Origin: Chitinophaga pollutisoli
GTDB lineage: Bacteria > Bacteroidota > Bacteroidia > Chitinophagales > Chitinophagaceae
Length of the DNA: 64,000 nt
Reading direction: 5' to 3'
NCBI RefSeq assembly: GCF_038396755.1
Contig: NZ_CP149822.1
Span: forward strand, 5,424,001 to 5,488,000
Numbering within the stretch: position 1 is the stretch's first letter; each line of letters starts with the position of its first letter. The notes under the pieces were generated by a model that saw nothing but the letters and a program-made list of their open reading frames with translations, had not been told where the DNA came from and ran no database searches. The position numbers and the translations under genes are program-made. Shown piece after piece: positions 23,178-41,932 of the stretch.

Positions 23178-23951
23178 TTAGTTCGTCACAATGCCGCGGT
23201 GTTGCTGCATGTATTGGCTGGGGCTGACGCCGAACTGTTTGATGAAATTTTTACCGAAATGGGTTTGGGATTTATATCCTACCATCATGGCCACTTCATA
23301 GATTTTCAGGTTGCGGCTGGCGAGCAGTTCGGCGGCTTTTTTCAAACGGGTTACGTTGATAAGCTCATGCGGCGTGAGGTCGGAGATGGCTTTGATCTTG
23401 CGATAGAGGCTCACCCGGCTCATGTTTACATGGCGCGACAGGTGTTCCACGTCGAGCTCGGTGTTTTCCAGTTCCTGTAAAATGAAGTGGTGGATGGAAT
23501 TGAGGAAGGATTCGTCTTCGCTGGTATGCGCCATCGCCTGGATGGGGGCTTGCGGCGTGCTGGCGAAGTACTGGCGGATTTTATTGCGGTTGCTGAGCAG
23601 GTTGGCGATCTGGACTTTGAGGAAAGCGGGGGAGAAGGGCTTTTCGATGTAAGCATCCGCGCCGGTTTCAAGGCCTTCGATCTTGGAGCGAAGGGTGTTT
23701 TTGGCGGTGAGGAGCACCACGGGGATGTGGCTGATGGCGAAGGTGGTTTTAACGGTTTTACATAGTTCGAAGCCATCCATGAGTGGCATCATCACATCGG
23801 AAATGATGAGGTCCACATTTTCCTGATGCAGCATGGCGATGGCGTCCCGGCCGTTCTCAGTGCGGAGAATCTGGTATTCGGGCACAAGGATGGAGGAAAC
23901 GAAATCCAGGATTTCTTCGTTATCGTCGGCCAGCAAAATAACAGGTTGCAT
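23178..23951 (-). CDS. Response regulator: receiver domain plus AraC-type DNA-binding domain (HTCS output half)
   Basis: 257 residues. Receiver domain 1-120: acidic pair ADDNEE near 8-13, phosphoacceptor Asp52 in LIISDVMMP, Lys in VVLLTAKN. An AraC/XylS double helix-turn-helix covers about 160-250 (MSRVSLYRKIKAI, IYEVAMMVGYKSQTHFGKNF). Normally this is the C-terminal half of a single hybrid sensor in Bacteroidota. Here it starts five bases after the kinase stop. One additional base in the A4 run at 23961-23964 (minus strand) would fuse both into a 1300-residue HTCS. It is expected to activate the PUL starting at 27415. Confidence 0.93.
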   Translation of the reverse strand: MQPVILLADDNEEILDFVSSILVPEYQILRTENGRDAIAMLHQENVDLIISDVMMPLMDGFELCKTVKTTFAISHIPVVLLTAKNTLRSKIEGLETGADAYIEKPFSPAFLKVQIANLLSNRNKIRQYFASTPQAPIQAMAHTSEDESFLNSIHHFILQELENTELDVEHLSRHVNMSRVSLYRKIKAISDLTPHELINVTRLKKAAELLASRNLKIYEVAMMVGYKSQTHFGKNFIKQFGVSPSQYMQQHRGIVTN

Positions 23952-26900: not shown

Positions 26901-27079
26901 TTGAGGCCGTCTTTGGTGCCCGCCCAGATAAATCCCTGTTTGTCCTGCGCCACGCAAAAAACGGTGTTGTGCGAAAGGCCGTCTTCCACCTGGTAATCGC
27001 GGAAATAGTATTGCTGCGCCCGGGAAGGCGCGGCCTGTAAAAGGCATAGCAAGGCCAGTATGGTACCGATGATCTGCAA
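23957..27079 (-). CDS. Sensor histidine kinase with periplasmic Reg_prop propellers and Y_Y_Y domain (HTCS sensor half)
   Basis: 1040 residues. Signal peptide to about 22, then some fourteen propeller repeats of the type VAQDKQGFIWAGTKDGLNRF making two periplasmic beta propellers (about 25-690). A Y_Y_Y domain follows (YRMEGLDNDWIW, LKPGHYTFHV), then a transmembrane segment (WAYLLYTLALISTGYY), HisKA with His825 in NVAHEINTPLTL, and a HATPase domain with NLFSNAIKYG and GTGIGLSICRSL. It senses an oligosaccharide in the periplasm and autophosphorylates. It is divergent from the SusC at 27415. The lack of a fused receiver is unusual; see the adjoining regulator for a possible one-base break. Confidence 0.92.
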   Translation of the reverse strand: MQIIGTILALLCLLQAAPSRAQQYYFRDYQVEDGLSHNTVFCVAQDKQGFIWAGTKDGLNRFDGREFRVFREKPGDSSAIGNNFIFSLCVDDNGQLYAGTGNGLYRYHAATESFERAPSPAGQDANALRADRQGNLWYLSWGRLYRYNPTKNISEPITGSYIPGNLSSVHVSKKGSVWIANAQGEIRRLGDSLHKWDVWRGSPKPHTRHITHLLSIPDGRLLVGTANQGLKLLDPEKNTYEDLVTWSDGDVGVYVRFIAHHSGSEYWIATESGIYIVNIATKKHINLRKQYNNPYSLTDNAIYCLHQDREGGMWAGSYFGGVNYYPKQYTYFEKYWPDNSGQTLSGNAVREICQDRYGNIWAGTEDNGVNRVDIRTGQIRQYTPRNNSSKALSHTNIHGLYADGNQLWIGTLDKGVDVMDIRTGQTVAHYSAGPESFGSNFILYFYRTRDGDMLVGTGSELARFDSAAGRFRRVEEVPHASQRSIAEAADGTLWMATSDNGVQWYRKHSGEHGMYTHDPRDSFSLSGNNVNTVLIDRAQRIWAGTEGRGICRLDGSGRWRRYTTAEGLPSDYIFRLLEDRRGMIWATTSRGLVCLEPESGAVKIFTTSHGLLNNQFNYNSGFQDKDGNMYIGSVKGMIRFNPDHFLPDTSAAPVYITGMEVRNMTMGPQEKRDIHYSKKITLPYHKANFSIAFAALSFTAPDMISYAYRMEGLDNDWIWMKSNRTVYFTDLKPGHYTFHVATTDANGNRRPGAAMLQIEITPPFWATSWAYLLYTLALISTGYYAIARYHRQQTMKQKRRMEALQLKKEKELYQAKVDFLTNVAHEINTPLTLIKGPLEEIMEHPGALQENRHHLAIMERNTNRLVQLTNQLLDFRQTESSGFRLDFELVDLRKILQETYDNFRLPAQQRKLQFDVQLPDVEVPAWADEESVNKIYSNLFSNAIKYGQTKVAAKLETSGGQVRLTVANDGPLIPEDMRERIFAPFVRLRENEKQKGTGIGLSICRSLTALHKGELSVTTENGLNIFTWSIPVGTFINLEN

Positions 27080-27414
27080 CGTAGTGGAATTATAAGGCTA
27101 CGTAAATATAAAAATATCCTGGAGGAAGAAGACGGATTGAAACGAAATGGCGAAAAATTGAAATGAATCGGCCAATGCTTGCCGATTGTTTTTTCAATCT
27201 TTGGATCGCGTTGAAGAAAAACTGATATCAGCCAGCAATAGTATTACCCACCGCGAAAACCGGTCCCACGGCCGGACAGGGCTTCTATTGCGCAGTGCGG
27301 AGGTATGCACATCACACGTCTAAATGGTTAAGTCGAAAAAACACGGTATGGAAAAACCGGCAATGCCGGAGGATCGAAACAGCATCCTTTAATCACCCAA
27401 AATCCATTTCACGT
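27080..27414. other. Divergent regulatory region between sensor kinase and PUL 2
   Basis: 335 bases without a supported gene. It should hold promoters of both the kinase (minus) and the SusC (plus) and the response-regulator sites. No TTTG/TAnnTTTG pair with good spacing could be picked out, and no clear inverted repeat. Confidence 0.45.
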
Positions 27415-30400
27415 ATGAACGACATTGCACTACAAAAAGTGGCAACGGTTCGTCGCAGTAAACTGATGTTACTGCTGTTGCTCTGCCTTTCCTGGGCAGG
27501 GGCCTACGCCCAAACGGCGGGCCCGCAGAAAGTTTCGGGCTTCGTGCGCGACAGTGCCGGTTCCCCGCTTCCCCAGGTCACCGTTTATGAAAAAGGTACC
27601 CGTAATGGTACGCTCTCGCAGCCCGACGGCCAATTTACCATCAATGTAAAACCCGGCGCCATCCTCGTGTTTACGATGGTGGGCTTCCGCACCCAGGAGC
27701 TCGCCGCCACACCGGGCACGGCCATGCAGGTGGCGCTGCTGTCTTCCGCCACAGAACTCACCGACGTGGTGATCGTAGGGTACGGTGCAGCACGTAAAAA
27801 ATCCCTTACCAACGCGATCTCCAGCGTTTCCGCGCAGGATATCGGCAATGTGCGCGGCGGCGCCACGGTATCTACCACCCTCGCGGGAAAGGTGCCCGGC
27901 GTATCATTCCGCATGCCCGATGGCCGCCCCGGCGCCTCCGCTTCCATCCAGATCCGCAACCTCGGCCGCCCGCTGTATGTGATCGACGGGGTGCAGCAGG
28001 ACGAAGGACAATTCAACAACATTTCACCTAACGACATCGAAAGCATTTCCTTCCTGAAAGACGCTTCGGCGGCTATTTACGGCGTTCGCGCGGCCAACGG
28101 CGTGGTAGTGGTGCAAACCAAAAGAGGCCGCATCGGCAGTCGGAGTTCCATCAACCTCGACGCCAACTGGGGCTGGCAAAGCTGGACGCGCTTTATCGAC
28201 GTGCTCGACAATTCGCACGAGTACATGCGCCTCAAGGCGGAAGCGGAAATGAACCGTTTTCCCAACATCGGCGACAATCCCATCACCACCAACATCACGC
28301 CCGAAGAACTGGAGAAATACCGCCAGGGCACGGAATATGGATATAAAAGTTTCAACTGGCGCGATTTTATCGTGAAGGAAAACACGCCGCTGAACATGTA
28401 TAACCTCAATTTCACCGGTGGAACCGATAAAGTGACATACTACGTTTCCGCAACGCGCACTTTCCAGAATTCGGTGCTGGGCCGGGAATACAAATTCACC
28501 CGTACCAATATCCAGAGCAACGTTTCCGCACGCGTGGCCAACGGCCTGCACGTGGGAACGAGCATCAACGGCCGGGTTGAAACCCGCGACAATCCCGGTG
28601 TTCCCGGCGGGGACGACTACTGGCAGGCGCGCTTCGCCGTGTTGCGGAATACACCCATGGAGCGCCCCTTCGCCAACGACAACCCGGCCTATCTCAACGA
28701 TATCAAACACAACGAAACCAACTGGGGTTATCTGAATACGCAATACGCCGGCAAGTTCAAAAGCGACTGGCGCCAGCTGCAGATGAACCTCGACGCGGAG
28801 TGGGATGTCCCCTTCGTGGAAGGGCTTAAAATCTCCGGCTTATACTCGTATTATATGGCAGACAACGTGCTGAACAACCACGAGTATACTTACGACACGT
28901 ACACTTACAATCCTTCCAACGATACCTACACCCGCACCGGCGGCTCTACCAACCCCTGGCGCGAACGCAACCAGGAAAAGCAGATCAACCAAAGCTCCCA
29001 GGTGAGGATCGGATATGAAAGGAAGTTCGGCGACCACAAGATCAACGCCATGGTGGTGAGCGAGCGCATCAACAACCACCGCCTCCGCAACTGGATCCAC
29101 GCTGTTCCCATTTCGAACCAGCTGCCCCTGATTTATTTCAACACTTCAGATACTTACACCGATCAGGACAACCGCCAGACGCGTACCGGTATCGCCGGCC
29201 GTCTGAACTACGAATATGGCAACAAATACTTCATCGAAGGCCTCATGCGCCGCGATGCTTCCTTCCTGTTCGCGCCCGGCAAACGGGTGGGTTACTTCCC
29301 CAGCGTGTCCGGCGCATGGCGCCTCACGGAAGAGAATTTCATGAAGAAAGTGGTGGGCACCGGTAAAATCCTTTCCGACTTTAAAATCCGCGGTTCCTAC
29401 GGTATCCTCGGCGACGACGGCGAAGCCCTCGGCCTGGCGGAATTCGCTTACTACGAAGGGTACAACTATAACGACGGTATCGCCATCCTCGACGGTGTAG
29501 CCGTGGTAGGCTCCCGCGACAGGGGCGTTCCCATCACCAACATCAGCTGGCTGGAAAGCTCCATCACCAACGTGGGTTTCGACTTCAGCATGCTCGGCGG
29601 AAGGTTGAACGGTGCGTTCGATTACTTCGTGCGCAAACGTAACGGCCTGCGCGGCCGCAAGCAGGACATCCTGCTGCCTTCCGAGCTAGGTTATGCGCTG
29701 CCGGATGAAAACATCAATAAAGACAAACGATTCGGACAGGATTTCTCCCTCAGCTACAATGATAAAGCCGGTAAGCTGAGCTATCGCATCGGTGGTAATA
29801 TTTCCTATTCGAGAGGCCAGTTCGTATCCTCTTACAATCCGCTTTTCTTCAATTCCGTGGATCGCTACTTCAACTCGGCGGAAGGCCGTTTGCAGGGCTT
29901 TACCTGGGGATGGGAGGCGATCGGGCAGTTCAAGTCGCAGGAAGAGATCAACAGCTATCCCGTGAACATCGACGGCAAGGGTAACAGGAGCCTCCTGCCC
30001 GGCGACATCATCTACAAAGACGTGGACGGCGACGGCAGGATTACGGATAACGACCGCCGCCCGATGGGATGGGCCTCCGGCCAGCAGCCCAACATGAACT
30101 TCGGTTTGCAGATCGGTTTGGGGTATGAAGGGTTCGATTTCGCGGCGGATTTCTCCGGCGCCTCACACTATACCTGGATCCAGGAATGGGAAATGAAAGT
30201 GCCTTTCATCAACGACGGTAACCTGAATAAAATCTTCACCGACCGCTGGCACCGTTCCGATATCTACGACCGCAACAGCCAGTGGACTTCCGGCAAATAT
30301 CCCGCGCTGCGGTACAATGACCAGGGCCACAGCAACAACCGGGCGTCTACCTTCTGGAATCATAACATCACCTATTTCCGCGCCCGTACCATCGAGCTGG

Positions 30401-30591
30401 GGTATACACTGCCCACGCCGCTGGTAAACCGCGCGAAGATCCAGAAAGCGCGATTCTATGTGAACGCCTACAACCTTTTTATCCTGGACAACATGAAGGA
30501 ATACAGCACCGATCCGGAAATCACGGATACGAACGGGTTGCAATACCCGCAGAGCAAGGTGTTTAATGTGGGCTGCAGTCTTTCATTCTAA
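27415..30591 (+). CDS. SusC-like TonB-dependent transporter (PUL 2)
   Basis: 1058 residues from the ATG at 27415, chosen because it precedes a signal peptide (LMLLLLLCLSWAGAYAQ). Regulatory-like domain (VSGFVRDSAGSPLPQVTVYE), TonB-box region VVIVGYGAARKKS, plug (SIQIRNLGRPLYVIDGVQQD, FLKDASAAIYGVRAANGVVV) and barrel ending VGCSLSF. The EF-hand-like DVDGDGRITDND loop typical of the family is present near residue 875. First gene of a run of nine same-strand genes opposite the sensor kinase. Confidence 0.95.
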   Translation: MNDIALQKVATVRRSKLMLLLLLCLSWAGAYAQTAGPQKVSGFVRDSAGSPLPQVTVYEKGTRNGTLSQPDGQFTINVKPGAILVFTMVGFRTQELAATPGTAMQVALLSSATELTDVVIVGYGAARKKSLTNAISSVSAQDIGNVRGGATVSTTLAGKVPGVSFRMPDGRPGASASIQIRNLGRPLYVIDGVQQDEGQFNNISPNDIESISFLKDASAAIYGVRAANGVVVVQTKRGRIGSRSSINLDANWGWQSWTRFIDVLDNSHEYMRLKAEAEMNRFPNIGDNPITTNITPEELEKYRQGTEYGYKSFNWRDFIVKENTPLNMYNLNFTGGTDKVTYYVSATRTFQNSVLGREYKFTRTNIQSNVSARVANGLHVGTSINGRVETRDNPGVPGGDDYWQARFAVLRNTPMERPFANDNPAYLNDIKHNETNWGYLNTQYAGKFKSDWRQLQMNLDAEWDVPFVEGLKISGLYSYYMADNVLNNHEYTYDTYTYNPSNDTYTRTGGSTNPWRERNQEKQINQSSQVRIGYERKFGDHKINAMVVSERINNHRLRNWIHAVPISNQLPLIYFNTSDTYTDQDNRQTRTGIAGRLNYEYGNKYFIEGLMRRDASFLFAPGKRVGYFPSVSGAWRLTEENFMKKVVGTGKILSDFKIRGSYGILGDDGEALGLAEFAYYEGYNYNDGIAILDGVAVVGSRDRGVPITNISWLESSITNVGFDFSMLGGRLNGAFDYFVRKRNGLRGRKQDILLPSELGYALPDENINKDKRFGQDFSLSYNDKAGKLSYRIGGNISYSRGQFVSSYNPLFFNSVDRYFNSAEGRLQGFTWGWEAIGQFKSQEEINSYPVNIDGKGNRSLLPGDIIYKDVDGDGRITDNDRRPMGWASGQQPNMNFGLQIGLGYEGFDFAADFSGASHYTWIQEWEMKVPFINDGNLNKIFTDRWHRSDIYDRNSQWTSGKYPALRYNDQGHSNNRASTFWNHNITYFRARTIELGYTLPTPLVNRAKIQKARFYVNAYNLFILDNMKEYSTDPEITDTNGLQYPQSKVFNVGCSLSF

Positions 30592-30609: not shown

Positions 30610-32505
30610 ATGAAAAAGTTATTTTCCATCATATTACTGGCGTCCGTATTTGCGGGAGGATGCAAGCCCGAGAGCGAGTTCCTCACCGTAGACCCAACGG
30701 CGATTCTGAATAACGAACAGGCATTCAACGACCCGGCGCTGGTGTTGTCGATGCTGGCGAATTTCTATAACCGGCAAACCGATTTCTCCACCGTGAAGAA
30801 CTGGGAATCGATGGCTGATTTCAGTGAGAGTTTTCCTTCGCAGAACGGTGGCCCCAAATCGATCATCGAGCGTAACCAGTGGGATTTCGGTTTCTGGAGC
30901 ACCTGGGATTACACCCTCATCCGCGAGCTGAACCTCTTCCTGCAAAGGCTGGAAGCGGCTACCAAACTGAAGGACGACGAGAAGAAGCGCTTCCGCGCCG
31001 AGGGCCGTTTCCTGCGCGCGTACTACTACTTTGAAATGGTGAAAAGGATGGGCGGCGTGCCGTTGATCCTCGAGCCTATGGTATGGGATTACAAGGGCGA
31101 CCCCACCTATCTCCGCCACGCCCGCGCCACGGAATCCGCCATGTATGATTTCGTGATCGCAGAAATGCAGGCCATCCGCCCCGACCTCCCCGCCGACGTG
31201 AACGTGAAATCCCGCGCCAGTCGCGGTGCGGCGCTGGCCATGGAGTGCCGCGCGGCCCTGTACGCCGGTTCCATCGCCAAATACGGCAATGTGACGCCTT
31301 CCGTTTCGCTGCCTACCGGCGAAGTCGGTATTCCCGCCAGCAAAGCGAACGACTATTATACCAAAGCCCTCACTGCCGCGGAGCTCATCATCAGCGGGTC
31401 TGCCGGTACCTACGCACTGTACCAGCGCAACGCCGATCTCTCCGAGAATTTCGCGGCGCTGTTTTACGACAAGGTAGGCAACCCGGAAAGCATCTTCATC
31501 GAAGACTTCAAGCTGAAAAGCGGAAAGGTGCACGGTTTTACGCAGGTGAACCAGCCCCGTTTCGGTGCGGAAGAGGAAGAAGGCGGCAGGATCAATCCTT
31601 CGCTGAACCTGGTGCAATCTTTCGAGAAACTCGATAATACATTCGAACAGCTGCCTGTGAAAGACGGAGCGGGCAATCCCATCTATTACGACAATCAGAC
31701 CGATATCTTCGCCGGCCGCGATGCGCGCCTCGGCGGTACCGTGATGCTGCCCGGCACCTTCTTCAAGCGCCGCCAGGTGGATATCTGGGCAGGTTATGTG
31801 CTGGCCGACGGTTCCGTTGTAACAGGCGACGACCGCGGTTCGCAAAAGACCCTGCCGGGGCAAACGCAACCGGTGCAGGTAGTGGGTTTCGACGGTCCCA
31901 TCCATGGTAAGGAACATACCGCGCAATCGGGTTTCTACCTCCGCAAATACCTTGACCCCGTGTCCGGTTCCGGATCGCGCGGTACGGGCAGCGAGATTCC
32001 CTTTATCCGTTACCGCTACGCGGAAGTGTTGCTGAACGCGGCCGAAGCGGCATTCGAGCTGAACCAACCGGGCGTTGCCGCGGGATATATGAACCAGGTG
32101 CGCGCACGCGCGGGGCTTACGACGCCGCTGGGCGCGGGAGACATCAACCTGGGCAGGATCATGCATGAGCGGAGAGCGGAGCTTTCCTTCGAAGGGCACA
32201 TCGTATTCGACCAGAAAAGATGGCGCAACGCGCATGTAGTTTGGGATGGTGTTTCCATGAACGAAGCAGATCTGCTGAGCAATATCGGTTCGCCGAACAA
32301 GCATAATACACAGCCGTTCTCGCTCTGGCCGTATAAAGTGCACAATCCCGGCAGCCCCACGCATGGCAAATGGATCTACCGCATTATCAAATCGCCGTTG
32401 GTAACGGGCACCAACCGCTTCCGGCTCGGCAATTATTATTCGTTCATCAACAACGACATCCGGTCCAACAACCCGAAAATCGTTCCCAACCCGAACCAGG
32501 ACTAA
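30610..32505 (+). CDS. SusD/RagB-like surface glycan-binding lipoprotein (PUL 2)
   Basis: 631 residues. Lipoprotein signal MKKLFSIILLASVFAGGC (Cys 18). SusD features include FRAEGRFLRAYYYFEMVKRM near 130, MGGVPLILEPM, then the C-terminal VLLNAAEAAFELN, YMNQVRARAGLT and HERRAELSFEGHIVFDQKRW. Starts 18 bases after SusC. The C-terminus departs from the usual NPGW ending and extends to RSNNPKIVPNPNQ. Diverged from the two SusDs of PUL 1. Confidence 0.94.
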   Translation: MKKLFSIILLASVFAGGCKPESEFLTVDPTAILNNEQAFNDPALVLSMLANFYNRQTDFSTVKNWESMADFSESFPSQNGGPKSIIERNQWDFGFWSTWDYTLIRELNLFLQRLEAATKLKDDEKKRFRAEGRFLRAYYYFEMVKRMGGVPLILEPMVWDYKGDPTYLRHARATESAMYDFVIAEMQAIRPDLPADVNVKSRASRGAALAMECRAALYAGSIAKYGNVTPSVSLPTGEVGIPASKANDYYTKALTAAELIISGSAGTYALYQRNADLSENFAALFYDKVGNPESIFIEDFKLKSGKVHGFTQVNQPRFGAEEEEGGRINPSLNLVQSFEKLDNTFEQLPVKDGAGNPIYYDNQTDIFAGRDARLGGTVMLPGTFFKRRQVDIWAGYVLADGSVVTGDDRGSQKTLPGQTQPVQVVGFDGPIHGKEHTAQSGFYLRKYLDPVSGSGSRGTGSEIPFIRYRYAEVLLNAAEAAFELNQPGVAAGYMNQVRARAGLTTPLGAGDINLGRIMHERRAELSFEGHIVFDQKRWRNAHVVWDGVSMNEADLLSNIGSPNKHNTQPFSLWPYKVHNPGSPTHGKWIYRIIKSPLVTGTNRFRLGNYYSFINNDIRSNNPKIVPNPNQD

Positions 32506-32523: not shown

Positions 32524-33231
32524 ATGAAAAAACTTTGTTCATATATCCTTCCCCTGGTGGCCCTGCTGGCCGCGTCTTGCAAGAAAGACAACTTCGATCC
32601 GCCCCAGGCGCGCCTGCACGGCAGGCTGGTGTACCAGGGCGAGGGCATTCCCTTGGAGTTTAACCAGGTGCCGTTCCAGCTGTACCAGTTCGGCTTCGGG
32701 AAGGTGGGCCCCGTGTCCAACACCACTTTCACGCAGGACGGGGCTTATTCGGTGCTCCTGTTCGAAGGGGAGTACAAACTCACCGTTCCCAACGGGCAAG
32801 GGCCTTTCCTCTGGAAAAAGCAGCCCGACGGCCGGCCTGATTCCATTACCGTGCAAATGAAGGGCGATCAGCAGCTCGACCTGGAAGTGACCCCCTTTTA
32901 CATGATCCGCAACGTGCAGATGGCGGCGGCGGCCAACAAGGTGACCGCTACTTTCGGCCTGGAGAAGATCGTGAATGGTGCGGACGGAAAGAATGTGGAG
33001 CGCGTGAACCTGTACATCAACAAAACGGCATTCGTGTCTGCCGGCGGCGATTACAGCATCGCATCCTCGCAACGCGGCGGCGGCGCGATCACCGATCCGG
33101 CGAATATTTCCATGGAAGTAACCGTTCCGGCGCTGGTGCCCGCGCAATCCTACATCTACGCAAGGGTAGGGCTGAAGCTGCAGGGGGTGGAAGACATGAT
33201 ATTTTCTCCCGTCACGAAGATCAACCTTTGA
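32524..33231 (+). CDS. DUF3823 lipoprotein
   Basis: 235 residues, lipoprotein signal MKKLCSYILPLVALLAASC (Cys 19). Two beta-sandwich modules can be seen: LHGRLVYQGEGIPLEFNQVP to LFEGEYKLTVPNGQGPF (about 30-105), and a second from FYMIRNVQMAAAANKVTATF. DUF3823 proteins occur almost only directly after SusD and are thought to be accessory surface glycan-binding proteins. The spacing of 18 bases on both sides supports one operon. Confidence 0.9.
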   Translation: MKKLCSYILPLVALLAASCKKDNFDPPQARLHGRLVYQGEGIPLEFNQVPFQLYQFGFGKVGPVSNTTFTQDGAYSVLLFEGEYKLTVPNGQGPFLWKKQPDGRPDSITVQMKGDQQLDLEVTPFYMIRNVQMAAAANKVTATFGLEKIVNGADGKNVERVNLYINKTAFVSAGGDYSIASSQRGGGAITDPANISMEVTVPALVPAQSYIYARVGLKLQGVEDMIFSPVTKINL

Positions 33232-33250: not shown

Positions 33251-34315
33251 ATGAAAAGACAGATTGTGCATGTTTGGCTGATATGCCTGGCAGCATTTGC
33301 GATGCCGGCGAAGGCGCAACAGGAAAGGCCCGTGTGGTCGAAAGAACAGGCCTGGAAATGGCATAAGCAGACACCGTGGATGGCAGGCGCCAATTTTTAC
33401 CCGGCAACGGCCATCAACCAGTTGGAAATGTGGCAGGCCGAATCGTTCGATACGGCTACCATTTCGCGCGACCTCGGCTACGCCGCCGGCATCGGGATGC
33501 GGGTGATGCGCGTATACCTCCATCACCTCGCCTGGAAAACGGATAAGGAAGGTTTCAAGCAACGCATGAAAAACTACCTGTCCATCGCAGACCGCCACAA
33601 CATCCGCACCATCTTCGTAATTTTTGACGACTGCTGGAACAACACATACGCCGCGGGACCGCAACCTGCGCCCAAACCGGGTATTCATAACTCGGGCTGG
33701 GTGCAGGACCCGGGGAAGCTCCTTCACGACGATCCCTCACTCATGGCCACGCTCGAAGCGTATACCAAAGACGTGCTGAAAACCTTCGCCAAAGACAAGC
33801 GCATCCTGCTGTGGGACCTCTACAACGAGCCCGGCAACTCCGGCTGGGGCGATAAGTCGATGCCCTTGCTGCAAAATGTTTTCCGCTGGGGCCGCACCGT
33901 GAACCCGAGCCAGCCCCTGAGCGTGGGCGTGTGGAACTTCAACCTGAAAAACCTCACCAAATTCCAGTTGGAAAACTCCGACGTTATCACATACCACGAC
34001 TACACAGACAGGCACCTCATCGTGGCGGACTCGTTGCTCAAGGCAACGGGTAAGCCGCTGGTGTGCACAGAGTACATGGCCCGCACCCGCAACAGTCATT
34101 TCGCCAATTCCCTTCCGGGACTAAAGGAACGCGGCATCATTGCCGTAAACTGGGGCCTGGTGCAGGGCAAATCGAACACCATTTACGCCTGGGACACGCC
34201 CATGAAAGACGGCTCCGAGCCGAAGGTGTGGTTCCATGACATCTTCCGCCCGGACGGGCGCCCTTACGATCCTTCGGAAACGGCGCTTATCCGGCGGTTG
34301 ACGCTGGGCAGATAG
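33251..34315 (+). CDS. Secreted clan GH-A glycoside hydrolase, GH5-like
   Basis: 354 residues with signal peptide ending AMPAKAQ. The (beta/alpha)8 fold shows both catalytic Glu residues of clan GH-A: Asn192-Glu193 in LLWDLYNEPGN as acid/base and Glu274 in VCTEYMAR as nucleophile. ITYHDYTD supplies the His/Tyr pair that normally precedes the nucleophile strand. Family-5-like proteins of this type are often named cellulase or xylanase without proof, so the bond cleaved is not known; the PUL context indicates a beta-linked glycan. No binding module is attached. Confidence 0.85.
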   Translation: MKRQIVHVWLICLAAFAMPAKAQQERPVWSKEQAWKWHKQTPWMAGANFYPATAINQLEMWQAESFDTATISRDLGYAAGIGMRVMRVYLHHLAWKTDKEGFKQRMKNYLSIADRHNIRTIFVIFDDCWNNTYAAGPQPAPKPGIHNSGWVQDPGKLLHDDPSLMATLEAYTKDVLKTFAKDKRILLWDLYNEPGNSGWGDKSMPLLQNVFRWGRTVNPSQPLSVGVWNFNLKNLTKFQLENSDVITYHDYTDRHLIVADSLLKATGKPLVCTEYMARTRNSHFANSLPGLKERGIIAVNWGLVQGKSNTIYAWDTPMKDGSEPKVWFHDIFRPDGRPYDPSETALIRRLTLGR

Positions 34316-34340: not shown

Positions 34341-35918
34341 ATGGATATGATTTCAACCGCCCCGCCGCAGCCTTCCCAGGTTGCGGCGGACCTGGGCGGC
34401 AGGGACCGCCGTTTGCTCTTCTGGGGCTGTTTTACGGTACTGGTAGCCTCCGCTTTCGGGTTCGTTTTCCGCTCTTTCCTCATGGACGGATGGGGCATGC
34501 AGTTTGGCCTTAGTAAAACCCAGCAGGGGGAAATTTTCGGTGTGAGCTTCTGGCCGTTCGGCATCAGCATCGTGCTGTTCAGTCTCGTGATCGATAAGGT
34601 AGGGTACAAATCCGCGATGCTTTTCGCCTTCGCCTGCCATTGCGCGTCCGTGGTGCTCACCATCATGGCCACGGGTTACTGGATGCTGTATTTCGGAACG
34701 CTGCTCTTCGCGCTGGGCAACGGCGCGGCCGAAGCGGTGGTGAACCCCGTGGTGGCTACCATGTACCCGCGGGAAAAGACCAAGTGGCTCAACATCCTGC
34801 ATGCCGGATGGCCGGCGGGCATGGTGCTGGCCGGGTTGCTGGGGATCGCGCTGATTCATTTCCACGTTCGATGGGAAATCATGATCGGTTGCATTTTACT
34901 GCCGGTAGTGGCATATGGATGGATGATCGCGGGGAAGAAATTCCCGGTGAGCGAAAGGGTGCAGGCCGGCGTGTCGTACCTGGATATGGTGAAGGAAGTA
35001 GGGATTCTCGGCATTCTGCTCATCGTATCGTTATGCGTATTCCAGGCGGGCAGTTTGCTGAACTGGTCGCTGACGGGGAAGATCGCCGTAACCGCCGGTA
35101 TCACGATCGCCGCGGGGTTCGTGGTGCGTTCGTGGGGCAGGCCGATGTTTATTCTCCTGTTGCTGGTGATGGTTTTGCTGGCTACGACGGAGCTGGGCAC
35201 CGACAGCTGGATCACCGACCTGATGACGCCCGAAATGGCTAAAATGGGCCTCCAGGGCGGATGGGTCCTCATTTATACTTCCGTGATCATGGCCGTGCTG
35301 CGCTTTTACGCCGGGCCGATTTGTCATCGTTTTTCGCCCTTGTCGTTGCTGGCAGTGAGTGCTGCGATTGCATTCGCAGGATTGAATTTCCTGTCGTGGT
35401 CGTCTGGCATCATGATCCTCGTAGCGGCAACGGTGTACGCGCTCGGCAAGACTTTTTTGTGGGGAACGATGCTCGGCGTGGTGGCGGAGCAGTTTCCCAA
35501 AGGCGGCGTGCTCGCTCTCAACTTCACGGGGGCCGTGGGTCAGGTGGGGGTTGGTGTGATCGGGGCGGTGATTCTCGGATTTGTACAGGATAAGCAGCTG
35601 GATCATAACCTCGTCCGCTACGACGCCGAAAACCAGACCGCGCTGCATGCCACATATCTCACGCAGGAGCGGAAGAGCCTTTTCGGCGAATACCGCGTGC
35701 TCGACAACGCCCGGCTGGAAACCGCGCCGGTGGAGGCGCAGGAAACTATCCAGGGCGTCCGCGAAGGCGCCAAGAAAGACGCCCTCCGTACGGTATCCGT
35801 TTTTCCCGTTATCATGCTGATCTGCTATGTGGGGATGATTTTGTGGTTCAGAGGGAGGGGAGGATACAAGCCGGTACTGCTACCACCGGCGGAAGGCAAT
35901 CAATCAACAAACACATGA
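34341..35918 (+). CDS. MFS sugar transporter
   Basis: 525 residues with about 12 hydrophobic segments. MFS signs: an acidic/basic loop VIDKVGYKSAML between helices 2 and 3, a helix-4 region YFGTLLFALGNGAAEAVVNP, and a long central loop after residue 200. A hydrophilic insertion near 420-480 (AENQTALHATYLTQERKS) precedes the last helix. It is likely the inner-membrane step that carries mono- or disaccharides released by PUL 2 enzymes into the cytoplasm. Starts 25 bases after the GH5-like gene and ends four bases before the next start. Confidence 0.9.
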   Translation: MDMISTAPPQPSQVAADLGGRDRRLLFWGCFTVLVASAFGFVFRSFLMDGWGMQFGLSKTQQGEIFGVSFWPFGISIVLFSLVIDKVGYKSAMLFAFACHCASVVLTIMATGYWMLYFGTLLFALGNGAAEAVVNPVVATMYPREKTKWLNILHAGWPAGMVLAGLLGIALIHFHVRWEIMIGCILLPVVAYGWMIAGKKFPVSERVQAGVSYLDMVKEVGILGILLIVSLCVFQAGSLLNWSLTGKIAVTAGITIAAGFVVRSWGRPMFILLLLVMVLLATTELGTDSWITDLMTPEMAKMGLQGGWVLIYTSVIMAVLRFYAGPICHRFSPLSLLAVSAAIAFAGLNFLSWSSGIMILVAATVYALGKTFLWGTMLGVVAEQFPKGGVLALNFTGAVGQVGVGVIGAVILGFVQDKQLDHNLVRYDAENQTALHATYLTQERKSLFGEYRVLDNARLETAPVEAQETIQGVREGAKKDALRTVSVFPVIMLICYVGMILWFRGRGGYKPVLLPPAEGNQSTNT

Positions 35919-35922
35919 CGTC

Positions 35923-38900
35923 ATGAAAAGAATATTGATAATACTACTGACAGGAATTATCTCCGCCTGGGCCCCTGCGCCCGGCGATGAGGAGGGAAGA
36001 AGGGCAGAAGCCCTGTTCGTTGGGAGCAGCGGTAACGTGCAGGCCACCTGGCTGGCGACGAAGCTGTTCAAAAGCGGCGTCAACATTACGTATACAGAGC
36101 GGCCGGACGATCTCCAGCCATCCAGGCTCGCGGCATTCGACGCGGTGATCTACTGTACGGCCAAAACGCCGTCGGCCACATCCCAGGCGGCGCTGCGCGC
36201 ATTTGTGGAGGGAGGGAAAGGGTTGCTCGTGTTGCACCATGGCGCGGAAGGCCTCCGCGCGGCGGCTTTCGCGAAACAATCCGGGAACCTGGGCAAAGGG
36301 CGCGTCATCGTTTTGACGGAAGGTAAATCCGATGACGCCTGGAAACAGGTCGCTTTTCTCGATAAAGTGCGCAACAACGTAATGGAAGCCATCGGCGAAG
36401 ATGCAAGAGGCCGCATCGCCGCGGCGAAAATCCCCGACGTCGATATTTACAATTCCGATACCATCGCGGATTATACCAAACGCTACAACGTTCCCAAATT
36501 CCAGGATGCCCTGCCGCCCGCGGAATCCAACAAGCTCACGCAGGTGCCCCCGGGATTCGAGATCCAGCTCTTCGCGCAGGAACCCGATATCACCAAACCC
36601 ATCGCCATGGCATGGGACGAAAGAGGCCGCCTCTGGATCGTGGAAACTATCGACTACCCGAATGATTTTGTGGAAACCGACTCCACCGCCAACGACCGCA
36701 TCAAGATCTGCGAAGATACCGACGGCGACGGCAAAGCCGATAAGTTCACCGTCTTCGCCGACAGCCTCAACATCCCCACCAGCATCGCCTTCGCCAATGG
36801 CGGGGTCATCGTTTCCATGGCGCCGTATTTCCTCTTCCTGCAGGATACCGACGGCGACGATAAAGCAGACAAACGCGAAACGATCTTCACCGGTTGGGGC
36901 AAACAGGATACACACGCCGGTCCTTCCAACCTCCAGTACGGTTTCGATAACAAGATATGGGGCGTAACCGGCTACTCCGGATTCGACGGCACCATCAACG
37001 GCGAACGGCAGAAGTTCCCGCAGGGCGTGTATCATTTCAAACCCGACGGTTCAGAATTCAAATTCCTCGGCCGCACCTCCAACAACACCTGGGGGCTGGG
37101 CTTTACGGAAGACAACCACGTATTCATTTCCACCGCCAACAACACCCATAGCGCCTGGTATTCCATGCCGTTTTGGTATATGCAGCGGAAAATTGATGTG
37201 GGCAACGCCGATCCCGTACAAAAAATCGACGGCCACTACGACGTGCATGCCATGACGCCGAACCTGCGCCAGGTAGACGTTATGGGCGGTTTTACTTCCG
37301 CCACCGGCCACCATTTCTATACTGCCCGCAGTTTTCCGAAGGAGTACTGGAACCGTGTGGCGTTCATCAACGAGCCTACCGTACGCCTTGTGCATAACGC
37401 CGTTATCGAAAAAGACGGCGCAGGTTTTAAGGAGAAAGATGGCTGGAACCTGATGGCCAGTTCAGACGAATGGTTTGGCCCGGTTCATGCTGAAACCGGC
37501 CCTGATGGTGCGGTATGGGTAGCAGACTGGTACAACTTCATTATCCAGCACAACGTGTTCGTGAAGGAACAGGCCCCCCGGGAAACCATCCTTCCCTTCA
37601 CCGAGCAGCCCCATGGAAAAGGCAATGCCTTCGAAAGCGAGCACCGCGACGTATCCCACGGCCGCATCTACCGCGTGGTGTACAAAAACGCCAAACCCTA
37701 CGTTCCCGTAAAACTGGACAGGCAAGACACCGCCTCGTTGCGCAAAGGTCTGCAACACGAAAATATGTTCTGGCGGATGACGGCGCAGCGCCTCATCGTC
37801 GAAGAGCAACTGACGGCGATGGCGCCCTCACTGCGCAGGATCGCCGCCAACAGGAGCATGGACGCCGTGGGGCTGAACAGCCCTGCCGTACACGCCCTCT
37901 GGACGCTCCACGGCCTCGGCCTCGATGCAGATCCTGCCACCTTCTCCACGTTCGTGGCTGCGCTGAAACACCCCGCTTCCGGCGTGCGGAAAGCGGCGGC
38001 AGCGGTACTGCCTAAAAACGCGAAGGGACAGGCGGCATTGCTCAACAGCGGTATCCTCAACGATAAAGATCTGCAGGTGCGCCTGGCGGCTATCAAGGAA
38101 CTGGTGGAATACCCCGCGTCTTCCGCGGCCGGTGCGGCGGTGTACCGCATGAGCACCGTTGCGCTGAACGGAAAAGACCCCTTCCTCGCCAAAGCCCTGC
38201 TGGCGGCGGCGGTGCAACACGAAAAAGGGTTTCTGTCCGCCGCGGGCGCGGCTACCGCACCTGCAGGCGCGTTTACGAAGAAGCTGACAGAAGCTTTATA
38301 TCACGAAGACTATGCTTTAGACCCCCGCGGATTCATGCCCGCCGCTCCCGACGTAAATGGTAAGGAAATAACGATCAGGGCTGCGGTGGGTGCTTCCCGG
38401 GATAATAAAAATCCCTCCGGCACCATCCTCTCACAAGGCAACGCCACCAACGGCTACACGCTCGCCGTGCGCGACGGCAAGCTGCAAATGGACGTGGTGC
38501 AGGCCGGTAAAACCTACAGCGCCGCGTCCACCGAAGCATTGCCCGAAAAGGCAGATGTGGAAGCGCAACTGTTGAAGAACGGCGCCATCCGCCTCCGCGT
38601 GAACGGCGAAGCGGCCGGTTCTGGGAAAGCACCGGGGCTGTTTACCACCAAAACGGACGGCTGGAGAACAGAAGAACGCTTCGCGGGACAGTTGCGCAAT
38701 GTGTCAGTCACACTCGACCGGTCGGCGCCCAAACCCACTGCGGAAGCGGTGCCCGCACTGGTGATCGATCTGAAAGTGGTGAAAGACATCATGCAGTACG
38801 ACAAGAAAAAACTGAGCGTGAAAGCCGGTCAGAAAGTGACGATCCGCCTTGAGAACCCCGACGGGATGCAGCACAACCTGCTCATCATCAAACCGGGGAC

Positions 38901-39132
38901 GCTGGAGAAAGTAGGCGCCGCGGCCGACGCGATGGTCCGCGACCCGAACGCGTCGAAGCTGCAATATGTGCCCAAAGTGCCGGAAGTGCTGCATGCCACG
39001 CGGCTGCTCAATCCCGGAGAAACGGTGAGCCTCACGTTCACGGCGCCGGCCACTCCCGGCGATTATCCTTTCGTCTGCACTTTCCCCGGCCACTGGCGCG
39101 GAATGAATGGAATTCTTCAAGTTGTTAAATAA
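35923..39132 (+). CDS. ThuA-like / PVC-type dehydrogenase / HEAT / azurin-like cupredoxin fusion
   Basis: 1069 residues, signal peptide about 1-20. A ThuA-like domain (about 28-175: AEALFVGSSGNVQATWLATK, GGKGLLVLHHGAEG) is followed by a PVC-type membrane-bound dehydrogenase propeller (about 205-590: VPPGFEIQLFAQEPDI, MAWDERGRLWIVETIDYPND, EDTDGDGKADKFTVFADSL), HEAT-like helices (620-740), a beta domain (770-910) and a C-terminal cupredoxin (930-1069). The last carries type-1 copper ligands: His in GMQHNLLI, and Cys1052, His1057 and Met1061 in VCTFPGHWRGM, the same Cys+5 His+4 Met spacing as azurin. Many PVC-type dehydrogenases have a haem c domain instead; no CxxCH is present. It probably oxidises a sugar in the periplasm and passes electrons to copper. 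Gap to the next gene is six bases. Confidence 0.87.
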   Translation: MKRILIILLTGIISAWAPAPGDEEGRRAEALFVGSSGNVQATWLATKLFKSGVNITYTERPDDLQPSRLAAFDAVIYCTAKTPSATSQAALRAFVEGGKGLLVLHHGAEGLRAAAFAKQSGNLGKGRVIVLTEGKSDDAWKQVAFLDKVRNNVMEAIGEDARGRIAAAKIPDVDIYNSDTIADYTKRYNVPKFQDALPPAESNKLTQVPPGFEIQLFAQEPDITKPIAMAWDERGRLWIVETIDYPNDFVETDSTANDRIKICEDTDGDGKADKFTVFADSLNIPTSIAFANGGVIVSMAPYFLFLQDTDGDDKADKRETIFTGWGKQDTHAGPSNLQYGFDNKIWGVTGYSGFDGTINGERQKFPQGVYHFKPDGSEFKFLGRTSNNTWGLGFTEDNHVFISTANNTHSAWYSMPFWYMQRKIDVGNADPVQKIDGHYDVHAMTPNLRQVDVMGGFTSATGHHFYTARSFPKEYWNRVAFINEPTVRLVHNAVIEKDGAGFKEKDGWNLMASSDEWFGPVHAETGPDGAVWVADWYNFIIQHNVFVKEQAPRETILPFTEQPHGKGNAFESEHRDVSHGRIYRVVYKNAKPYVPVKLDRQDTASLRKGLQHENMFWRMTAQRLIVEEQLTAMAPSLRRIAANRSMDAVGLNSPAVHALWTLHGLGLDADPATFSTFVAALKHPASGVRKAAAAVLPKNAKGQAALLNSGILNDKDLQVRLAAIKELVEYPASSAAGAAVYRMSTVALNGKDPFLAKALLAAAVQHEKGFLSAAGAATAPAGAFTKKLTEALYHEDYALDPRGFMPAAPDVNGKEITIRAAVGASRDNKNPSGTILSQGNATNGYTLAVRDGKLQMDVVQAGKTYSAASTEALPEKADVEAQLLKNGAIRLRVNGEAAGSGKAPGLFTTKTDGWRTEERFAGQLRNVSVTLDRSAPKPTAEAVPALVIDLKVVKDIMQYDKKKLSVKAGQKVTIRLENPDGMQHNLLIIKPGTLEKVGAAADAMVRDPNASKLQYVPKVPEVLHATRLLNPGETVSLTFTAPATPGDYPFVCTFPGHWRGMNGILQVVK

Positions 39133-39138
39133 AACGGT

Positions 39139-39852
39139 ATGAACAGCAAACATTTCTTTCGTCAACTTTTAGCCTTTGCGCTGATGCTGGCCGCCCTGCC
39201 GCTAGCCGCGCAGAAAGCGCCGGTCCGCGTGCTCGTTGTAGGCGGCGGCGGTTCGCATGATTTCAATCGCTGGTATAAAGTGGAAGACGCCGCCACGCTG
39301 GAGCGCGACGGTTTCGCCAAAGTCACCTACACCGACGATCCCTCCACTATCACGGCCCTCCTCCCGGAAGCGGACGTGCTGCTTTTGGCCAACAACCAGC
39401 CCATTAAAGACCCCGCGGCCCGCAACGCCATCTTCGCTCATGCGGATGCCGGAAAAGGGCTCGTGCTCGCGCACGCCGCCATCTGGTACAACTGGAAAGA
39501 CTGGCCGGAATACAATGCGCGCCTGGTGGGCGGCGGCAGCAGGTCGCACGAGAAGTACGGTCCTTTCACCGTCACCCTCAAAGGCAAGCACCCCGTTACG
39601 CGCAAAGTGCCGAAAAGCTTCACGCTCGACGATGAGCTGTATCACTACAACGCCGACCCCGCCGCCGCCAAAATCGCCGTGCTGGCTGAAAGCAGCAACG
39701 GCAAGGGGGTGATCCATCCGGCCGTGTTCATTGTGGAACATCCCAAATCGCGCATCGTGGGCCTGGCGCTGGGGCACGACGATAAATCACATGAGCTGGC
39801 AGCGTACCAGACACTGTTGCGGAACGCCGTTAAATGGGCGGGCCGCCGATAA
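39139..39852 (+). CDS. ThuA-like protein (class I glutamine amidotransferase fold)
   Basis: 237 residues with signal peptide ending LPLAAQK. The ThuA fold shows in VRVLVVGGGGSHDFNRWYK, EADVLLLANNQPI, GKGLVLAHAAIWYNWKDWPE and KSRIVGLALGHDDKSHEL. ThuA is known from rhizobial trehalose/3-keto-sugar metabolism, where it is linked to the Gfo/Idh/MocA oxidoreductase ThuB; its biochemical role is unsettled. Here the next gene downstream is also a Gfo/Idh/MocA protein, so a ThuA-ThuB-like unit is plausible. It is exported, so it acts in the periplasm. Confidence 0.88.
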   Translation: MNSKHFFRQLLAFALMLAALPLAAQKAPVRVLVVGGGGSHDFNRWYKVEDAATLERDGFAKVTYTDDPSTITALLPEADVLLLANNQPIKDPAARNAIFAHADAGKGLVLAHAAIWYNWKDWPEYNARLVGGGSRSHEKYGPFTVTLKGKHPVTRKVPKSFTLDDELYHYNADPAAAKIAVLAESSNGKGVIHPAVFIVEHPKSRIVGLALGHDDKSHELAAYQTLLRNAVKWAGRR

Positions 39853-39879
39853 TTCTTCACCTTAAAAATTCAGGATATT

Positions 39880-40989
39880 ATGAAACAGATCACGGTTGTA
39901 ATTGTAGGGATGGGATTCGGAAAGGAATTTATTCCCATTTATCAAAAGCACCCCGCCATTAAACGGGTGGGCATTTGCACGAGGAATCCGGAAACGCTGA
40001 GAGAACTGAAGGAACGTTTCAACCTCGACGACGATCTCATCTTCACCAATTACGAAGACGTGCCGAAGCGCGCCGACGTAGACGCCATCCACATCGTTAC
40101 CCCCGTTCCCGAGCACGCCCGCATGACGCTGGCCAGTCTCAACGCCGGCAAACACACCGCATGCACTATCCCCATGGCCATGACCGTGGAAGATTGCAAA
40201 GCCATTGTGGAAGCGCGCAAAAAATCGGGTAAAGTATATATGATGATGGAAACCGCGCTCTACACCCGCGAATTCCTCTACGGACTGAAGCTGGCGGAAT
40301 CCGGTGAGCTGGGCCGCATCCAGTTTGTACGCGGTTCGCATATCCAGGATATGAGCATGCCGGGATGGGATGAATACTGGAAAGGATATCCGCCCATGCT
40401 CAACGGCACGCACGCCATCTCACCGCTGTTGCGCATCAACAATACCAAAGCGGAATCCGTGGTATGCCATGGCTCCGGCCGCCTGAGCGAAGACCTTGCT
40501 TCCCGCTATGGAAGCCCGTTTGCTGTAGAAACCGCCACTTTCACCCTGAAGAATTCCGACGTGGTGGCCGAAGCAACCCGCTCGCTGTTCGATGTGGTGC
40601 GCCAGTACCGTGAAAGCTATGATGTATACGGTACGAAGATGTCATTCGAATGGGAGCAGCTGCAGGACGAAGGCCATTCTGTTTTTGATGGCGGTGAAAA
40701 CGCCCGCAGGATGGAATGCCCCGATACCGACGAGATGCTGATTCCGGAAATCGCGCACTTCACCAAGCGGGAGAAGATCGACGATCCCAACCACGTATCG
40801 TTCCTGCAGGGAGCGGGGCACGGCGGATCGCACCCGCACCTGGTGCAGGAGTTCCTCGCGGCGATCGTGGAAGGCCGCGAATCCGCGGTGGACGCACATA
40901 TGGCGGCCAACTACACCTGCGCCGGCATCTGCGCGCACGAATCCGCCATGAACGGTGGCAAACGCATCCAAATTCCTGATTTCGAATGA
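39880..40989 (+). CDS. Gfo/Idh/MocA-family NAD(P)-dependent oxidoreductase
   Basis: 369 residues, no signal peptide. The Rossmann part opens with ITVVIVGMGFGKEFIPIY and includes DVDAIHIVTPVPEHARM. The usual catalytic Lys of EKP is not seen at that place: the sequence reads ACTIPMAMTVEDC, so the EKP motif is lacking. The C-terminal alpha/beta part contains GTHAISPLLRIN with a His, and CAGICAHESAMNGG. It could reduce or oxidise a sugar at C3, as ThuB does. Its end overlaps the start of the isomerase gene by four bases (ATGA), indicating coupled translation. Confidence 0.9.
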   Translation: MKQITVVIVGMGFGKEFIPIYQKHPAIKRVGICTRNPETLRELKERFNLDDDLIFTNYEDVPKRADVDAIHIVTPVPEHARMTLASLNAGKHTACTIPMAMTVEDCKAIVEARKKSGKVYMMMETALYTREFLYGLKLAESGELGRIQFVRGSHIQDMSMPGWDEYWKGYPPMLNGTHAISPLLRINNTKAESVVCHGSGRLSEDLASRYGSPFAVETATFTLKNSDVVAEATRSLFDVVRQYRESYDVYGTKMSFEWEQLQDEGHSVFDGGENARRMECPDTDEMLIPEIAHFTKREKIDDPNHVSFLQGAGHGGSHPHLVQEFLAAIVEGRESAVDAHMAANYTCAGICAHESAMNGGKRIQIPDFE

Positions 40990-41852
40990 TGACAACCAAA
41001 CCCGTAATCCAGACCGGCATCAGCACCTTTGTGTATGCATCCCCGTTTAAAACGGCTGACTTCCACCTGTTGCCGAAGATAAAAGCCGCTGGCTACGATA
41101 TCGTGGAAGTAGCGGTGGAACAGGCGGACCTCATAGACTGGGACCTCCTCGTTTCCATGACGCGCGACCTGGGCCTGCGGATCACGCTGAGCGGCGCCTT
41201 CGGCCCCCGGCGCGACATTTCCTCCGACAACGCCGCCTTCCGCAAAGAGGGGCTGGATTACATCCTGACATGTATCCGGCTGGCGGAGAAGACCGGCAGC
41301 CCGTTGTTCGGCGGGCCCCTGTATTCGGCAGTCGGCAAAACGCGCATTGTGCCAGTGGAGCAGAAGCGGCAGGAGCGTGCCTGGTGCCTGGAAAACCTGC
41401 GCATCGCCGGCAAAGCCGCCGCCGACCACGGGATACTCCTGGGCGTTGAAGCGCTGAACCGTTTCGAAACGGATATGATCAACACAACCGACCAGGCCCT
41501 GGCCCTGATCGCAGAAGTGGATCATCCGGCCCTTCGCCTTTCGTTCGACACTTTCCACGCCAATATCGAGGAAAAGGATATCCCCGCCGCGATCCGGAAA
41601 GCCGGCGCGCTGCTGTTGCACGTGCAGGCCAACGAAAGCGACCGGGGCACCCCCGGCACGGGGCACCTCCCCTGGACGGCCATCCGGCAGGCGCTGGATG
41701 AGATCGGGTACCAGGGCTCCGTGGTGCTGGAAACCTTCGGTGAACCTTCGGAAGAACTGGCCCGCGCGGCCTGCATCTGGCGGCCGCTGGCCGGTAGCGC
41801 TGACGAAATGGCCACCGAAGGCGCTGCATTTTATAAGCGAATTTTTACATAA
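40986..41852 (+). CDS. Sugar phosphate isomerase/epimerase-type TIM barrel
   Basis: 288 residues, cytoplasmic. Similar to the tagatose/psicose 3-epimerase group: VEALNRFETDMIN carries the metal-ligand Glu, LSFDTFHANIEEKD carries Asp and His, VQANESDRGTPGTGHLPW is the substrate loop and SVVLETFGEP supplies the second Glu. This loop order (HxxE...GxGH...E) is the D-psicose 3-epimerase pattern. It is translationally coupled to the oxidoreductase, so the two probably act on consecutive steps of a keto-sugar path. Last gene of the PUL 2 block. Confidence 0.88.
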   Translation: MMTTKPVIQTGISTFVYASPFKTADFHLLPKIKAAGYDIVEVAVEQADLIDWDLLVSMTRDLGLRITLSGAFGPRRDISSDNAAFRKEGLDYILTCIRLAEKTGSPLFGGPLYSAVGKTRIVPVEQKRQERAWCLENLRIAGKAAADHGILLGVEALNRFETDMINTTDQALALIAEVDHPALRLSFDTFHANIEEKDIPAAIRKAGALLLHVQANESDRGTPGTGHLPWTAIRQALDEIGYQGSVVLETFGEPSEELARAACIWRPLAGSADEMATEGAAFYKRIFT

Positions 41853-41901: not shown

Positions 41902-41932
41902 GGCCGTCCGGTTTCCCGGACGGCTATTTTTT
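41902..41932 (+). terminator. Rho-independent terminator of PUL 2
   Basis: A nine-base perfect GC-rich stem (41903-41911 with 41916-41924) and four-base loop are followed by TATTTTTT, about 50 bases past the isomerase stop. Confidence 0.88.

Follow-up and report, generated by a model that had tools for sequence, protein, structure and literature searches.

Within a window of 64,000 nucleotides (positions 5424001-5488000 of the one-contig, 6.08-Mb genome of Chitinophaga pollutisoli), we analysed a block of genes that closes an operon headed by a SusC/SusD pair. With a confidence that stays slightly below even, we read this block as a conserved sugar-oxidation module of the SusCD operon, in which a large fusion protein would oxidise a sugar in the periplasm and an enzyme resembling glycoside hydrolase family GH109 would afterwards carry out the cleavage. 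The genes of the block are as follows.

35923-39132, plus strand: fusion protein of 1069 amino acids (shortened ThuA-like, DUF7133 propeller, HEAT-like, LamG-like and cupredoxin parts)
39139-39852, plus strand: stand-alone ThuA (PF06283, 97.1 bits, reaching the curated score), with a signal-like N-terminus by eye
39880-40989, plus strand: Gfo/Idh/MocA-fold enzyme, GH109-like, with no signal-like N-terminus by eye
40986-41852, plus strand: ketose 3-epimerase-type TIM barrel (AP_endonuc_2, PF01261), with no signal-like N-terminus by eye

Recurrence and conservation of the block

The block is not a chance assembly, because it recurs in other genera and because a search starting from the Gfo/Idh enzyme also finds the fusion beside it. 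From 193 stretches homologous to the fusion we kept 80, with their flanks, as a set of loci, and we aligned 42 of the 80 fusions, 28 of 78 Gfo/Idh homologues and 24 of 70 TIM barrels. The Gfo/Idh enzyme was found in 78 of the 80 loci and could not be taken from L037 and L097, where the contigs end early. Its first form (at least 84% identical) occupies 62 loci, all 62 of which hold the stand-alone ThuA and 53 the TIM barrel, with the order fusion-ThuA-Gfo-TIM in 50; its second form (49-53% identical) occupies 16 loci, accompanied by the TIM barrel in every one and by the stand-alone ThuA in none. Relatives of SusC were seen in 51/62 first-form loci versus 0/16 second-form loci, and relatives of the MFS transporter in 12 of the 80.

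When the 117 genomes of the family were searched with the Gfo/Idh enzyme at E 1e-80, it was present in 8 genomes, the source genome included, and absent from two genomes of the same genus. Adjoining the eight matches from other genomes were a fusion homologue (7), a TIM barrel (4), an MFS transporter (3) and SusC (2); the eighth match, which has no fusion homologue, lies on a contig that begins 1.2 kb upstream, and one of the eight (L127) probably comes from the same genome as L061. Across the phylum the enzyme was found in 24 of 395 genomes, again including the source genome. In five between-genus pairs its protein identity is 84-88% while the four-fold sites are only 17-43% identical, which indicates that the gene is under unusually strong purifying selection; identity of the fusion, ThuA and TIM barrel in the same pairs is 41-64%.

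In other genera the module stands near GH43, sulfatase and GH5-like genes, among others, and in Algoriphagus near UPF0261/PEP-hydrolase genes; these neighbours do not point to one substrate. A protein of about 700 amino acids follows the module in 21 of the 80 loci (L071:16502-18601 and relatives), and the one representative scanned gave no Pfam match. A literature search at title and abstract level found no description of this module.

A GH109-like enzyme of the Gfo/Idh fold

The lysine of the E-K-P motif, an aspartate and a histidine form the catalytic triad of Gfo/Idh/MocA dehydrogenases (PMC7535918). In our alignment E-K-P is replaced by T-I/V-P in all 28 rows and the EKP lysine is absent, the aspartate position is taken by asparagine (21 rows) or tyrosine (7 rows), and the histidine is retained in 28/28. 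The identification as a plain Gfo/Idh dehydrogenase is weakened by the absent lysine. The histidines of GH109 are matched in all 28 rows, H314 in GAGHGG and H178 in THxxxP, and the protein fits the GH109 fold; catalytic roles have been described in GH109 for the GHGG loop histidine and for a second histidine (PMC10755693). Like the GH109 N-acetylgalactosaminidases that depend on nicotinamide adenine dinucleotide (NAD) (6t2b, 2ixa) and like the GH188 sulfoquinovosidases (PMC10755693), the window enzyme combines the Gfo/Idh fold, two aligned catalytic histidines and the GHGG loop, and its lack of the EKP lysine is shared with the aligned GH109 rows. Unlike GH109, it has no C-terminal family score and forms its own clade, and the position of GH109 Tyr226 appears to be occupied by His154. 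The GH188 enzymes differ in keeping a lysine at the C3 hydroxyl (PMC10755693).

Two trees, one built with 8 of the 28 alignment rows and the other with four long-branch rows dropped, joined the enzyme to GH109 with clade support of 96/92 and 95/92, with long branches, and the approximately unbiased test gave a rival topology a p of 0.10. In motifs, trees and structure the enzyme leans to GH109, with ties and caveats. It looks more like a rare sugar-cleaving enzyme acting through a short-lived keto-sugar than like an oxidoreductase. An earlier, preliminary description of this DNA had named it a Gfo/Idh/MocA oxidoreductase within a possible keto-sugar pathway; the lost lysine and the leaning to GH109 both weaken that assignment.

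The fusion protein as a putative sugar dehydrogenase

Within the fusion the following parts were distinguished.

35998-36252, plus strand: N-terminal ThuA-like remnant (about residues 26-110), longer in most aligned homologues
36547-37692, plus strand: propeller (residues 209-590), structurally matching sugar/aldose dehydrogenases
36715-36741, plus strand: acidic DTDGDGKAD loop, calcium-site-like by eye, with D265, D269, G270 and D273 invariant in the alignment
36844-36870, plus strand: second acidic DTDGDD loop, calcium-site-like by eye, with D308, G311, D312 and D316 invariant in the alignment
38758-39126, plus strand: type-1 copper (azurin-like) domain, predicted ligands H984, C1052, H1057 and M1061

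Domain scores were 405.8 bits for DUF7133, 259 bits for TIGR02604 (an N-terminal domain, cut-off 122) and 51.5 bits for Copper-bind; the HEAT and LamG assignments fall under the Pfam cut-offs. The copper ligands His, Cys, His and Met are found in 38 of the 42 aligned fusions, and the remaining 4 have no such domain, which is carried by the next gene. The protein had been described as a PVC/azurin fusion, and the TIGR02604 score and copper ligands uphold that part; the haem site expected of the name is missing, and an additional ThuA-like stretch stands at the N-terminus. With no CxxCH motif anywhere in the fusion, a haem-type PVC dehydrogenase was rejected as its identity. The ThuA-like stretch (residues 43-109) scored 31.5 bits within the whole protein (cut-off 33.4) and 37.4 bits when excised; it is shortened internally in the window copy, other Chitinophaga rows and four Parapedobacter rows, and long in 32/42. 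The window copy lacks the lipoprotein-type cysteine that many rows show on inspection by eye; the lipoprotein pattern matches 28 of the 42 rows, some rows with a plain cysteine being missed by it.

Among 935 of the 1000 top Foldseek-ranked chains compared, the best structural matches of the propeller are sugar/aldose dehydrogenases, glucose dehydrogenases included, and the propeller has the fold of the soluble sugar dehydrogenases that use pyrroloquinoline quinone (PQQ). Dehydrogenases of this kind oxidise C1. Sequence identity to the soluble PQQ aldose dehydrogenases 3a9g, 3das and 2g8s is 11-13%, and, unlike them, the window propeller shares its polypeptide with ThuA-like, HEAT-like, LamG-like and copper domains. 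No ThuA, HEAT, LamG or copper-part structure appeared in the top 50 of the structural listing, which barely tests these parts. By fold only, the cofactor would be PQQ-like; a PqqE profile search returned nothing above the cut-off.

Several results weigh against our reading of the two proteins. PF21252, the C-terminal domain of GH109, was not among the matches of the Gfo/Idh enzyme at E 0.001, and Foldseek alone placed GH109 at ranks 30 and 35 for it. For the fusion there was no PF07995 score, the matches at E 1 being DUF7133 and weak NHL, TEN_NHL and DUF6802, and a profile comparison of the propeller with GSDH gave a probability of 2.9%. Because this comparison failed, as did a sequence search of the PDB that returned weak WD40 repeats only, the dehydrogenase argument is carried by the structural match. 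Were the fusion no dehydrogenase at all, and instead a copper-bearing binding or lactonase-like propeller, the module would serve some other sugar change; set against that structural match, we regard this as very improbable.

The partners: ThuA and the TIM barrel

The stand-alone ThuA is a normal member of its family; among ten matches listed in a PDB search at E 1, the two below 1e-6 are a putative ThuA-like protein and a hypothetical protein. In the rhizobial ThuAB system a ThuA-family protein likewise stands beside a Gfo/Idh protein. The window differs from that system in a Gfo/Idh enzyme devoid of the dehydrogenase lysine and in a ThuA with a signal-like N-terminus.

The closest matches of the TIM barrel are D-tagatose/D-psicose 3-epimerases (130 bits in one search, 180.4 bits against the NCBIfam equivalog). 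A genuine 3-epimerase of this type was rejected, the NCBIfam cut-off being 300 bits and one metal ligand being changed: of Glu152, Asp185, His211 and Glu246, which we take to be the metal site of the known enzyme, the His211 position is Gln214 in all 24 aligned rows, and the site is not kept intact. E155, E161, D188, H191, R220 and E249 are kept in 24/24.

In an alternative reading, a free aldose set loose by the glycosidase of the polysaccharide utilisation locus (PUL) is oxidised at C1. The fusion would turn it into an aldonolactone, ThuA or other proteins would open the ring, and the Gfo/Idh enzyme and TIM barrel would rework the aldonate in a manner resembling inositol or keto-gluconate metabolism. 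The aldose and glucose dehydrogenases at the top of the propeller's structural matches speak for it, as do the score of the TIM barrel with 5-keto-L-gluconate epimerase (133 bits, under the cut-off of 300), an enolase-superfamily gene in six Parapedobacter module loci, a DUF7133-ThuA-MFS cluster with MR_MLE elsewhere in the source genome and a DHDPS-family gene downstream of the block; but this last gene lies, with an SSF gene, past a terminator-like hairpin and an opposing AraC gene, no lactonase family was matched among the scanned operon proteins, and the GH109-like features would be left unexplained. On balance we consider C1 oxidation of this kind unlikely.

Possible keto-sugar chemistry and related clusters

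The 3-ketotrehalose hydrolase BT2157 belongs to DUF1080 (PF06439), a family for which action on 3-ketolactose has been proposed; one of its members, though, is an endo-xanthanase/lichenase (PMC9007349). LacABC and DUF1080 form a 3-ketolactose route described from Caulobacter, and Pedobacter and Indibacter have clusters related to it (PMC9007349). The window resembles this route, its Bacteroidota cases included, in extracytoplasmic sugar oxidation followed by a proposed cleavage of the oxidised glycoside, and differs from the Caulobacter type in having a propeller-copper fusion without DUF1080 in place of a LacABC oxidase with it. The source genome has 14 DUF1080-matching stretches, all of them outside the window, and tblastn with two DUF1080 queries at E 1e-4 gave no match in the 80 loci. 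GMC C-terminal matches in the genome are confined to 571-574 and 3330 kb, none in the block. A canonical 3-keto-glycoside pathway of the LacABC/BT2157 type was rejected, the block having no DUF1080, GMC or EKP-type Gfo/Idh. Two adjoining DUF1080 stretches stand in different frames (G000:C1:5674176-5674744).

Elsewhere in the source genome, a parallel cluster (2496-2506 kb; L111:1372-10496) carries a one-strand series of genes for an MFS transporter, a Gfo/Idh of the EKP type, a TIM barrel of PF01261, a DUF1080 protein, ThuA and a fusion of ThuA, GSDH, PKD and cytochrome c. It mirrors the window block role for role: where the block has copper, DUF7133 and the GH109-like enzyme, the cluster has cytochrome c, GSDH and the EKP enzyme, and DUF1080 is its extra member. 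On the simplest view, the window block may perform related chemistry without DUF1080, the GH109-like enzyme serving as the cleaving step.

In another account, a disaccharide or glycoside would be oxidised at C3 by the fusion while still in the periplasm and be cleaved by ThuA or by spontaneous elimination, and the Gfo/Idh enzyme would reduce the 3-keto sugar. In its favour, the genome pairs the ThuA-GSDH-cytochrome c fusion and ThuA with the families just named, the sequence relatives DgpA and levoglucosan dehydrogenase act at C3, LacABC oxidation at C3 in the Caulobacter periplasm has been reported, and a putative Pedobacter lactose dehydrogenase matters for lactose use, although no DUF1080 phenotype was observed there (PMC9007349). 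Still, no DUF1080 was found in the window or the 80 loci, the GMC matches lie elsewhere, the Gfo/Idh enzyme has no catalytic lysine and the propeller matches C1 dehydrogenases, and we judge this account rather improbable.

The preliminary description had proposed a possible keto-sugar pathway with oxidation, probably at C3, outside the cytoplasm. Its first half is in keeping with a sugar-dehydrogenase-like protein whose N-terminus is signal-like and which carries its own electron acceptor, with families known from keto-sugar pathways and with the parallel DUF1080 cluster; its second half is unsupported in that form, because the propeller best matches sugar/aldose dehydrogenases of the C1 type. 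On the carbon that the fusion would oxidise, the structural matches point to C1-type enzymes and the gene context to keto chemistry.

In the levoglucosan and phlorizin routes, Gfo/Idh enzymes and TIM barrels act on 3-keto sugars (PMC10066097, PMC10628242). The window shares this pairing with LgdA/LgdB1/LgdB2/LgdC, where LgdB1 and LgdB2 are PF01261 proteins (PMC10066097), and with OGE/HYD/Gfo of A. tumefaciens (PMC10628242); unlike theirs, its TIM barrel is closest to ketose 3-epimerases, and a propeller-copper oxidant is not mentioned for those routes in the parts of the papers available.

A second copy of the module lies at 286-292 kb (L107:4067-9587), with a fusion, a TIM barrel, a second-form Gfo/Idh and an adjoining AraC-like gene; its Gfo/Idh is split over two overlapping frames, through what looks like a frameshift or a sequencing error. 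At 2088-2100 kb (L109:1166-13346) stand a DUF7133-CxxCH protein, ThuA, an MFS-like protein, MR_MLE, a 2-hydroxyacid dehydrogenase, myo-inositol oxygenase and an SSF-like protein.

Operon layout and neighbouring genes

Upstream of the block, and just past it, the following features were recognised.

23178-23951, minus strand: separate response regulator with an AraC-type helix-turn-helix (open reading frame (ORF), read from sequence)
23957-27079, minus strand: sensor histidine kinase of hybrid two-component system (HTCS) type, divergent from the operon (ORF as listed; type read from sequence without a family search)
27415-30591, plus strand: SusC/RagA TonB-dependent transporter (TIGR04056, 747 bits; the ORF opens with GTG at 27295, likely start ATG at 27415)
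30610-32505, plus strand: SusD/RagB lipoprotein (PF07980, 123 bits)
32524-33231, plus strand: DUF3823 protein (family match)
33251-34315, plus strand: GH5-like glycoside hydrolase candidate (PF00150, weak at 27.5 bits, cut-off 23.5), with a signal-like N-terminus by eye
34341-35918, plus strand: MFS transporter (family match), an occasional module partner
41902-41925, plus strand: terminator-like hairpin (10-bp stem and T-run) starting 50 bases past the final base of the last gene

Family scores and ORF positions bear out the genes first named and their order, which runs on one strand over 27.4-41.9 kb from SusC, SusD, DUF3823, the GH5-like candidate (without a match in a PDB sequence search) and MFS to the fusion, ThuA, Gfo/Idh and AP_endonuc_2 TIM barrel. 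Coupled translation of the last two, also proposed in the preliminary description, agrees with their ATGA overlap at 40986-40989. The remaining genes are spaced by 4 to 27 bases, and the hairpin is the best terminator-like candidate, with the longest stem in the scanned region (21 such sites versus 13.1 expected, most of them weaker and intragenic); because of the short gaps, the overlap and the hairpin 3' of the last gene, a single transcript over the operon is likely. The Bacteroidota promoter pattern matched twice in the window versus 0.86 expected, neither time upstream of the operon. The putative regulator of the operon, described at first as an HTCS, is encoded by two separate ORFs, kinase and response regulator, five bases apart. 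The supposed departure from the usual import logic of a PUL was likewise overstated, SusCD, a glycosidase candidate and an MFS transporter all lying within the operon. Downstream VOC, AraC, SSF and DHDPS genes were excluded as module members, because they lie past the hairpin and because VOC, SSF and DHDPS are seen in Chitinophaga loci only. Among named relatives the nearest fusion homologue belongs to Chitinophaga, with 96% identity to an uncultured Chitinophaga metagenome-assembled genome.

Proposed mechanism and significance

In our proposal the fusion would be exported to the periplasm, where a sugar or glycoside would be its substrate for oxidation. From the PQQ-like cofactor of the propeller the electrons would reach the type-1 copper, and from there the respiratory chain. 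ThuA would act on the oxidised product in the periplasm, and the MFS transporter would take the product into the cytoplasm. There the Gfo/Idh enzyme, using NAD in the GH109 manner, would cleave or remodel it through C3 oxidation, elimination, hydration and reduction, the C3 ketone being mainly transient on the enzyme, and the TIM barrel would then work on the released keto-sugar. The GH109-like enzyme would thus perform the cleavage that in the parallel cluster would fall to DUF1080. More speculatively, and at odds clearly short of even, the module may represent a distinct line of oxidative glycan breakdown in the Bacteroidota. In it a ThuA-propeller-copper fusion would, outside the cytoplasm, oxidise a glycan-derived sugar and hand the electrons directly to its own type-1 copper site, a new GH109-related NAD clade would break the oxidised glycoside in place of DUF1080, and a ketose epimerase with an altered metal site would follow.

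If this is true, a fused copper domain would connect polysaccharide uptake loci with respiratory sugar oxidation, DUF7133 and ThuA would gain testable roles, and a GH109-related clade under unusually strong constraint would be added to the known enzymes. For the question of which enzyme cleaves, the parallel cluster with DUF1080 elsewhere in this genome offers a direct comparison.

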